A stretch of 64,000 bases of DNA from Sphaerisporangium cinnabarinum (GTDB lineage: Bacteria > Actinomycetota > Actinomycetes > Actinomycetales > Cellulomonadaceae), in the NCBI GenBank assembly GCA_003052455.1, contig QAPD01000006.1, positions 1 through 64,000 of the forward strand. Direction: 5' to 3'. Shown in pieces: positions 6,276 through 8,317 of this stretch; positions within the stretch are counted from its first letter, which is position 1; each line of letters opens with the position of its first letter. The notes beneath the pieces were generated by a model that saw only the letters and a list, made by a program, of their open reading frames with translations, did not search any database and was not told the DNA's origin. The translations under genes and the position numbers were made by a program.

Positions 6276-6826
6276 CGGCGTACGTGTGCCTGCTCTTCGC
6301 CGTGAACGTGGGCGGGCGCAAGGTCCCGTCGACCGCGCTGCGCGACCTCGCGGGCGATCTCGGGCTCCCGCACGCCCGCACGGTCGTGAACAGCGGGAAC
6401 CTCGTCGTCGGGCCGGGGTCGTCCGGCGCGGCGTCGCCCGCGGCAGTCGCGCGCCGCCTGCACGACGGCGTCGCCGAGCGCTTCGGCGTGGACGCCGCCG
6501 TGGCCGTGCTCACCACCGAGCGCCTCCGGAAGATCGTGCGCGGCAACCCGTTGCCCGACGACGCCGCCGAGCGTCCGGCCGGGCTGCTCGTCCACGTGGG
6601 CGAGGAGCCCGTCGACCCGGACGCGGCCGGCGCGCTCGGGCCACGGCTGACGACCGAGCGCGCCGCCGTCGCGAACGGCGTCCTCTACGTCGCCTACCCC
6701 GACGGCGTCGGGCGGTCGAGGCTGACGACGGCCGTCCTCACGAAGGCGGCCGGGACCCCGGTGACCGGCCGGAACTGGAACACCGTCACCCGCCTGCTCG
6801 ACCTCGCCGAGGACACCCCGCCCTGA
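6272..6826 (+). CDS. DUF1697 family protein
   Basis: 184 residues with the DUF1697 pattern: an N-terminal YVCLLFAVNVGGRKVPSTALRDLAGDLGL-like strand-helix (shown here in outline), then RTVVNSGNLVV, and a C-terminal TGRNWNTVTRLLDL. The usual hallmark is LLRGINVGG near the start; here it is LLFAVNVGG. Function of the family is unknown. The GTG start overlaps the amidase stop by 4 nt, so the two are co-translated, though no functional link is evident. Confidence 0.8.
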   Translation: MTAYVCLLFAVNVGGRKVPSTALRDLAGDLGLPHARTVVNSGNLVVGPGSSGAASPAAVARRLHDGVAERFGVDAAVAVLTTERLRKIVRGNPLPDDAAERPAGLLVHVGEEPVDPDAAGALGPRLTTERAAVANGVLYVAYPDGVGRSRLTTAVLTKAAGTPVTGRNWNTVTRLLDLAEDTPP

Positions 6827-6914
6827 CGCGCGCGGCGCGACGACCACCGGGAGACTGGACCGCGAGCCGGGCACGTCGACCGCGAGGGGTGCGCCGCCCT
6901 CGAGCGACGCCCCG

Positions 6915-6920
6915 TAGAAT
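6915..6920 (+). promoter_or_regulatory. Candidate -10 element of nhaA
   Basis: TAGAAT lies about 10 nt before the structured nhaA leader, the right place for transcription to begin at the riboswitch 5' end. No strong -35 was recognised. Confidence 0.5.
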
Positions 6921-6924
6921 CGTG

Positions 6925-6990
6925 GGCGGTGTGCCGGGAAGTCTGGTCGGCCACGGTCCGCGACGCGGCCGTGCGACACGACAGCGACCC
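6925..6990 (+). ncRNA. nhaA-I motif RNA (Li+ riboswitch candidate)
   Basis: The leader contains GCCGGGAAGTCTGGTCGGC (6933-6951), which I recall as the conserved core of the nhaA-I motif, shown by others to sense Li+ and found upstream of actinobacterial nhaA. The core GCCG/CGGC pairs as a small hairpin. It is followed by CACGGTCCGC and GCGGCCGTG, which form a second hairpin with a GAC loop. An outer GTGT/ACAC pairing closes a multistem structure. It ends just before the GGGAG ribosome binding site (6992-6996), consistent with translational control. Match is from memory, not from a covariance search. Confidence 0.8.
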
Positions 6991-7000
6991 CGGGAGCACG

Positions 7001-8317
7001 ATGACCCACGCCGCCCTGCCCTCCGGCCCTTCGGCCACCCCACGCGCCACGCCGACCTCCCCGGGCGAGCGCCTGCGCCGCTGGGTCGGTCGCGAGACGA
7101 CCGGCGGCGCCCTCCTCATCGGTGCCGCGCTGCTCGCGCTGGTCTGGGCGAACTCGCCCTGGCGCGAGTCCTACCTCACGCTGTCGAGCACCGTCGTCGG
7201 CCCGTCCTCGCCGCTCCACCTCGACCTGACGCTGTCGACGTGGGCCGCCGACGGCCTCCTCGCGATCTTCTTCTTCGTGGTCGGTGTCGAGCTCAAGCAG
7301 GAGTTCGTCGCGGGCAGCCTGCGCAACCCGAAGCAGGCGGGCGTCCCGGTGCTCGCGGCGATGGGCGGGATGGCGGTGCCGGCCCTGATCTTCGTCGCCG
7401 TCCTGCTGACCACGGGCGACCCGGGCGCCCTGCACGGGTGGGCGATCCCCACGGCGACGGACATCGCGTTCGCGCTCGGCGTGCTCGCCGTCTTCGGCCG
7501 CGGGCTCCCCGTCGCGATCCGCACGTTCCTGCTCACGCTCGCGGTCGTCGACGACCTGCTCGCGATCGTCGTCATCGCGATCTTCTACACCGCGGAGCTG
7601 CGGTGGGGCTACCTCGGCCTCGCGCTGCTCGCCGTCGCGCTCTACGCCGTCCTCGTGCGGGCTCGCCGCACCCGCTGGTGGCTCCTGCTGCCCGTCGCGG
7701 CGGTCGCGTGGGCGTTCATGCACGAGTCGGGCGTCCACGCCACGATCGCGGGCGTCCTGCTCGGCTTCACCGTCCCCGCGCTCGCGGTGCACGGCGAGCG
7801 CGAGTCGCGCACGCACCGCTTCGAGCACACGATGCGCCCGGTGTCGCAGGGCGTCGCGCTGCCGGTGTTCGCCTTCTTCGCCGCCGGCGTCTCGATCGTG
7901 GGCGGCGAGACCCCGGTCGGCGAGGTGCTGACGCAGCCGGTCGTGCTCGCGATCGTGCTCGGCCTCGTCCTCGGCAAGCTCGTGGGCGTGCTCGGGGTCA
8001 CGGCGCTCGTCACGCGCTTCACGCCGTTGCGCCTCGCTCCCGGCATCGGCGTGCGCGACCTCCTGCCCGTCGGGTTCCTCGTGGGCATCGGCTTCACCGT
8101 CTCTCTGCTCATCGCGGAGCTGTCGTTCCCCGACGCCGAGCACACCGACGGCGCGAAGATCGCGATCCTCGCGGCGTCCACGATCGCGGCGGTGCTGGCC
8201 GCGCTCGCGCTGCGCTGGGACGCCCGCCGGGCCCGCTCGAACGACATGAACCGCGACGACCTCCCGGACGACGTCACCGACTTCATCGGTGACCCGAGGG
8301 ACCGCCTGGAGCACTAG
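7001..8317 (+). CDS. nhaA: Na+/H+ (Li+/H+) antiporter NhaA
   Basis: 438 residues, slightly longer than Escherichia coli NhaA (388). Conserved ion-binding acidic residues are present: TATDIAFALGVL (equivalent of Asp133) and VVDDLLAI (equivalents of Asp163/164). The protein is highly hydrophobic with about 11-12 helices; the first 30 and last 30 residues are polar. It exchanges cytoplasmic Na+ or Li+ for external protons. Start: ATG at 7001 with GGGAG 4 nt upstream; an in-frame upstream ATG at 6929 lies inside the riboswitch-like leader and is rejected. It converges with the PHB depolymerase gene, 20 bp apart. Confidence 0.96.
   Translation: MTHAALPSGPSATPRATPTSPGERLRRWVGRETTGGALLIGAALLALVWANSPWRESYLTLSSTVVGPSSPLHLDLTLSTWAADGLLAIFFFVVGVELKQEFVAGSLRNPKQAGVPVLAAMGGMAVPALIFVAVLLTTGDPGALHGWAIPTATDIAFALGVLAVFGRGLPVAIRTFLLTLAVVDDLLAIVVIAIFYTAELRWGYLGLALLAVALYAVLVRARRTRWWLLLPVAAVAWAFMHESGVHATIAGVLLGFTVPALAVHGERESRTHRFEHTMRPVSQGVALPVFAFFAAGVSIVGGETPVGEVLTQPVVLAIVLGLVLGKLVGVLGVTALVTRFTPLRLAPGIGVRDLLPVGFLVGIGFTVSLLIAELSFPDAEHTDGAKIAILAASTIAAVLAALALRWDARRARSNDMNRDDLPDDVTDFIGDPRDRLEH

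Follow-up and report, generated by a model that had tools for sequence, protein, structure and literature searches.

The leader of nhaA in Sphaerisporangium cinnabarinum contains a short conserved element that, as judged from comparison across genomes, is best read as a cis-acting RNA of the leader, apparently not described before, and probably as a riboswitch that responds to Na+ or Li+ and regulates translation. The sequence studied, referred to here as the window, is the 64-kb stretch at positions 1-64,000 (+) of contig QAPD01000006.1 (assembly GCA_003052455.1). Within it, nhaA encodes a Na+/H+ antiporter of 438 aa (7001-8317, +; PF06965, 432.7 bits, E 1.3e-129). The element, GGTGTGCCGGGAAGTCTGGTCGGCC, is 25 nt long and lies at 6928-6952 (+), such that element position i corresponds to 6927+i; the transcript is predicted to begin with the first of these nucleotides. 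A predicted −10 box identified by pattern match, TAGAAT (6915-6920, +), is found 7 nt ahead of the element's first G. Positions 6-9 (6933-6936, +) and 21-24 (6948-6951, +) provide the two strands of a proposed stem, P1, and enclose an 11-nt conserved loop, GGAAGTCTGGT (positions 10-20; 6937-6947, +), that is free only at its centre, position 15. Further downstream, the heptamer CGACCCC (6985-6991, +) adjoins the Shine-Dalgarno sequence GGGAG (6992-6996, +), which was recognized from its sequence and from the enrichment of GGAG downstream of members of the element family. The CGACC portion of this heptamer complements positions 18-22 (6945-6949) and is the proposed switching partner. From the alignment of members, the consensus of the 25-nt element is GGNG-X-GCCG-GGAAGNCTGGT-CGGC-Y.

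The 19-nt core to which the preliminary description drew attention, GCCGGGAAGTCTGGTCGGC, is present in the nhaA leader at 6933-6951 (+), and its conservation far exceeds chance. It is the window's only site with three or fewer mismatches; shuffled sequence contains a mean of 0.09 sites, with at least one site in 8 of 100 shuffles. Two details of that description have to be corrected. The core was said to stand directly before the ribosome binding site, and instead about 40 nt separate it from GGGAG; stems were said to flank the core, and instead the GCCG/CGGC stem sits within it. Just past the window end, the genome encodes a second, divergent NhaA (68405-69616) that shares 39.6% identity with the window's NhaA and is not accompanied by the element.

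Across the genus, the exact 17-mer CCGGGAAGTCTGGTCGG is found in 15 of 17 genomes, and one more carries it with an A at the centre; the single genome in which the 17-mer was not found is 75% complete. At the level of the phylum, YCGGGAAGNCTGGTCGR occurs in 97 of 396 genomes, compared with 6 for the reversed control. A looser pattern, in which GGNG was added and the stem was freed, matches 195 of 296 class genomes, whereas its reversed control matches 7. A scan of named genomes returned at least 119 loci under at least 51 genus labels; all of the matches listed belong to Actinomycetota and, from their record titles, include Streptomyces and mycobacteria. One 9.7-Mb genome (G223) has nine exact 17-mer sites, and pairs of elements on opposite strands, separated by about 100 to a few thousand bases, are seen in L079, L086, L087, L122 and L140. 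A phage origin was also considered and was rejected, as viral contigs gave no matches to the element. No description of an actinobacterial nhaA leader, and no instance of the core string, was found in the mainly open-access journal literature that was searched, and the portions of the noncoding RNA discovery literature that were covered make no mention of such an element. It looks, on this basis, to be previously undescribed.

The searches fixed the letters of the loop, and the invariance of the loop in the alignment is thus largely built in. When one mismatch was allowed, at least five rows with a loop change were recovered among the matches listed (T17G in three, G10C and T20G in one each). 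An estimate independent of any pattern comes from 98 class genomes, which yielded 30 nhaA loci chosen without reference to the element. The strict loop, with position 15 free, is present in 11 of these loci and its T17G version in 4; the remaining 15 contain nothing nearer than five mismatches. In this sample, the element accompanies NhaA proteins that are nearer to that of the window: it is found at 14 of the 19 loci with at least 48% identity and at 1 of the 11 with 42% or less. The T17G loop, GGCGTGCCGGGAAGACGGGTCGGCG, precedes nhaA in L283, L284, L287 and L290, and is possibly a specificity variant.

The position of the element relative to the promoter is nearly constant. Of 217 members, 117 have a TANNNT whose end is exactly 7 nt upstream of G1; the distance is 8 nt in 34 and 6 nt in 14, and no other offset accounts for more than 7 members. 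This count omits nine members that were found solely via a TANNNT pattern. From this fixed spacing, G1 is predicted to be the transcription start to within about one base, and thereby the transcript 5′ end. In addition, GG is present at positions 1-2 in all 55 matches to the 17-mer whose loci were fetched without a flanking pattern. Riboswitches do not usually keep so constant a spacing from the −10 box. The spacing suits a role at the level of DNA and is one argument for an alternative in which positions +1 to +25 are an operator bound by an actinobacterial salt- or pH-response transcription factor.

At three of the four P1 pairs, 6-24, 7-23 and 8-22, a G-C or C-G pair is replaced by U-A in 5, 4 and 1, respectively, of 50 distinct elements. 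These double-sided changes number 10, compared with 0.8±0.8 in shuffles, and none of 500 shuffles reached as high a count. Each distinct element of the 226 members kept is represented once in the alignment, and the count follows an intact-P1 filter that removed 4 of the 230 members because their stems were broken or could not be read (L204, L237, L243 and L247). It also includes loci from a set of 20 regions that were selected by hand because their stem letters were altered, and the proportion of swaps therefore does not estimate how frequent they are in the population; five of the 20 (L256-L260) lack the GGNG flank and gave no member. Outside the pair counts, a broken stem pair occurs in at least two members among the matches listed (C7•A23 in G593 and U6•C24 in G599). 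By themselves, the P1 swaps would fit a palindromic operator equally well, with GCCG and CGGC as half-sites and the paired changes as an expression of two-fold symmetry. Elements in which U6-A24 replaces G6-C24 are found in L058, L062, L245, L248, L249 and L250, those of L058 and L062 precede an ABC transporter, and the six are possibly a specialised subclass.

In contrast, the covariation between positions 5 and 25 does not fit palindrome symmetry. Among 230 members, this pair is U•G in 92, C•A in 64, U/C in 20, A/A in 17 and U/A in 14. U•G and C•A are isosteric wobble pairs. On a quick FastTree phylogeny of 124 NhaA proteins, the association was tested with the 86 rows that have C or T at position 5 and A or G at position 25. 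For 14 independent pairs of rows that differ at position 5, position 25 changes in the same way in a mean of 11.5, in the opposite way in none and not at all in 2.5 (median p 0.0005). Given the predicted transcription from G1, the element shows what is looked for in a riboswitch, in that a 5′ leader contains a conserved RNA structure whose pairs covary.

Downstream of the element, the complement of its 3′ portion is enriched. CGACC is present within 70 nt in 104 of 226 leaders, compared with 63.9 in shuffles, which is the top excess in a scan of 5-mers; when one member per genus label is counted, the values are 25.6 of 51 and 14.6. For the longer CGACCCC, the count is 49 of 226 members (10.7 in shuffles), and among 150 leaders with both features, GACC starts 4-8 nt ahead of a Shine-Dalgarno-like word in 49. 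In agreement with this placement, the predicted probability that positions 18-22 are paired downstream is 0.77 in native leaders and 0.58 in shuffled ones (p 1e-19, with members that are not independent). Native leaders are also more stable than shuffled leaders (−29.5 versus −27.5 kcal/mol); taken alone, the leader in the window does not exceed its shuffles in stability (z −1.13 and −0.34). The P1 fold is scarcely ever predicted by ViennaRNA in the absence of ligand: its mean probability is 0.006, and a comparison of native leaders with shuffled ones gave 0.008 and 0.054. Forcing P1 to form raises the mean predicted accessibility of the Shine-Dalgarno sequence from 0.40 to 0.48, a small shift in which changes of more than 0.1 are upward in 83 of 201 leaders and downward in 24. 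A separate observation concerns complements of the 5′ strand of P1, which are depleted downstream in the 226 leaders (GCCGG 24 versus 44.7, TGCCGG 2 versus 9.1), as if competitors of P1 were avoided.

The genes that follow the element are mainly those for ion transport. In 128 of 226 members, nhaA follows directly in the same orientation; 9 others have nhaA in the locus in a different arrangement, and in 89 none was found, some of these being loci that were fetched as short pieces. Downstream genes were chosen by a GC-position heuristic, which yielded none for 9 of 188, and one representative per cluster was scanned. The remaining clusters comprise CPA1 exchangers (12), a CBS protein of about 150 aa (8), ABC transporters (6), MrpA-type proteins (5), a permease-like protein with no Pfam match (4) and CitMHS/ArsB-type proteins (3). 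Smaller clusters include P-type ATPase, H+-PPase, TrkH, TrkA_N and Na/Ca exchanger proteins, along with DUF2254, PPDK, abhydrolase, glycosyltransferase and SpoIIE-type proteins that have no plain cation role. The shared theme of the targets is Na+, K+ and H+ transport, and several targets are without an evident ion role. At the CBS loci, the next gene looks, by inspection of the sequence, as if it encodes an NhaD/ArsB-type transporter in 6 of 8; for the transporters of L073 and L085, the matches to the ArsB and NhaD models are below the cut-offs. The order of element, CBS protein and then CitMHS/NhaD/ArsB-like transporter is seen in L004, L073, L085, L135, L155 and L162, and in L140 the CBS protein follows a CPA1 exchanger. 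These loci are probably a salt-response operon of unnamed function.

Together, these observations modestly favour an RNA element that would act in cis from the extreme 5′ terminus of the nhaA mRNA, operating as a switch between P1 and the CGACC pairing in response to a monovalent-cation signal. In one state, positions 6-9 and 21-24 would form P1, lengthened by the 5-25 wobble pair, and present the 11-nt loop. In the alternative state, positions 18-22 (GGUCG) would pair with CGACC just ahead of the Shine-Dalgarno sequence in a longer helix. P1 would be stabilized by a signal related to monovalent cations, for which intracellular Na+ or Li+ is the likeliest candidate, and this fold would free the ribosome-binding region and increase NhaA translation, making the element an ON switch. 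Stabilization of P1 by Na+ or Li+ with translation on is taken as the likeliest logic because Na+ and Li+ are the ions that NhaA and related proteins export; the nature of the signal, its direct binding by the RNA and the ON sign are inferred. The pairing of the alternative state may also serve as an H-type pseudoknot, with positions 18-20 bound to ACC. The size of the element speaks against this model, since an aptamer of 25 nt would be very small if the downstream strand did not participate. A wider proposal is advanced more tentatively, and we hold it at somewhat below even confidence: that the element defines a phylum-wide and so far undescribed class of riboswitches, each made of some 25 nt at +1 together with a distal strand, through which Actinomycetota would sense Na+ or Li+ (or else H+) and coordinate a regulon for sodium/proton transport.

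Because P1 is scarcely ever predicted, the leader is not unusually stable and the placement at +1 is strict, two other explanations are kept as live rivals, each of which we regard as unlikely. The first is the DNA operator introduced above. Beyond the fixed spacing and the symmetric swaps, it would account for the AGNCT at the exact centre of the site, which is also palindromic, and for the divergent paired copies with both-strand matches in L079, L086, L087 and L122. However, the site is asymmetric, with GGA on one side of the loop and GGT on the other, and the T17G variant at four loci disrupts the central palindrome. Its orientation is likewise single: all 55 of the 17-mer matches fetched without a flanking pattern have GG on one and the same side, and the element points at nhaA in 128 of the 137 members whose locus includes that gene and does not in 9. 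An operator would moreover leave the enriched complement of positions 18-22 near the Shine-Dalgarno sequence unexplained, the 5-25 pair violates the two-fold symmetry it calls for, and no DNA-binding regulator family is present among the 20 target representatives scanned with Pfam.

The second rival, given the same low weight, is an RNA hairpin that is read by a trans-acting RNA-binding protein, or that acts on mRNA decay from the 5′ end, with no direct binding of an ion. The very short element, its conserved loop, its 5′-terminal position and the heterogeneous list of targets would all be in keeping with such a hairpin, whereas the downstream complement suits a self-contained switch, and no recurrent gene for an RNA-binding protein was found among the scanned target representatives.

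A leaderless upstream frame, GTG-(TGC/CGC)-CGG-GAA-GTC-TGG-TCG, whose peptide or translation would control nhaA, is very improbable and was rejected: no stop interrupts the G2T3G4 frame within the element, and in the window the frame continues into nhaA (ORF 6929-8317), yet position 3 is a base other than T, which removes the GTG, in 35 of 230 members, the second base of codon 5 is free whereas wobble bases are fixed, and the median first stop in frames 0, 1 and 2 (159, 195 and 354 nt; 192 members) shows that frame 0 stays open no longer than the others.

The least credible explanation is the one that the preliminary description had put forward, that the element is a member of the nhaA-I (Li+-I) riboswitch class. 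The downstream gene is the same, and the nhaA-I consensus shares the short string UGGUCGG and a 5′ GGUG with the element. However, the covariance-model search proposed at that time gave no nhaA-I match: cmscan with 4227 Rfam families found nothing in the 64-kb window at gathering scores and nothing at E≤10 in the 341-bp leader region 6780-7120. With stricter filters, RF03057 is above its cut-off in none of 99 genomes (that of the window and relatives), and a Caulobacter positive control was detected in this search. One relative has a sub-threshold RF03057 match (L003 1501-1555, −; 36.3 bits versus a cut-off of 37), with no transporter recognized next to it, which is probably due to chance. When the nhaA-I consensus was compared by eye with the element alignment, the two-stem architecture of P1 and P2 with its GCAGGU and CGGGCC strings was found to be absent. 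Finally, the range given for nhaA-I in the consulted sections of White et al. 2022 (PMC9646797) is Alpha-, Beta-, Gamma- and Deltaproteobacteria. What stands from the preliminary description is a genuine conserved element in the nhaA leader, with an RNA-like signature and a position ahead of mostly monovalent-cation transporter genes; the nhaA-I identity does not. Lithium, which had been named as the likely inducer, suits this gene set no better than Na+ or alkaline pH, which fit equally well.

Further Li+ sensors are still to be discovered according to the consulted part of White et al. 2022 (PMC9646797). If the favoured reading, that of a cation-responsive leader RNA, is true, the element would be a common cis-regulator of Na+/H+ antiporters in many Actinomycetota, including Streptomyces and mycobacteria, and would be among the smallest natural ion-responsive RNAs. 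It would also supply defined sets of target genes, with up to nine sites per genome (G223), for studying how bacteria sense salt and pH. The gene list in addition flags transporters of unknown substrate that are probably part of the same response.

Among known RNAs, preQ1-I and other minimal H-type pseudoknot riboswitches have a tiny stem-loop with a loop able to pair just ahead of the Shine-Dalgarno sequence. The element resembles them in this layout and differs in sequence, genes and ligand, and a pseudoknot here is a possibility. The string GGGAA..GGU presumably resembles part of cobalamin riboswitches, and no cobalamin Rfam match was obtained in the leader or in 20 other loci. The Rfam scan of these further loci gave a single match overlapping the element, radC in L034, which at 29.3 bits against a cut-off of 40 is taken as chance. 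A clear SAM-IV riboswitch (90.4 bits) is located in L014 at 1238-1347 (−), upstream of the element and on the opposite strand. Membership in nhaA-I, nhaA-II or Na+-I was rejected, as no Rfam model matched; the nhaA-II and DUF1646 families are both, we take it, part of the library searched. The DUF1646 RNA (Na+-I riboswitch, PMC9337991) is similar in the wide range of Na+ and H+ transport genes that its report describes; it has no Rfam match here, and Actinobacteria are not named in the main text of that report. The nhaA-II RNA (Li+-II riboswitch) shares the association with nhaA; it too has no Rfam match in the leader, and its range in the consulted sections of PMC9646797 is Gammaproteobacteria, with a Brevundimonas construct used. 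The remaining comparison is with nhaA-I (RF03057, Li+-I riboswitch), which, as far as those sections describe it, has in common with the element an nhaA leader, probable translational control, conserved loop nucleotides and genes for monovalent-cation transporters. In contrast to the 55 model positions, two stems and proteobacterial range of nhaA-I, the element described here has 25 nt, a single stem and a place at the predicted 5′ end of transcripts in Actinomycetota.
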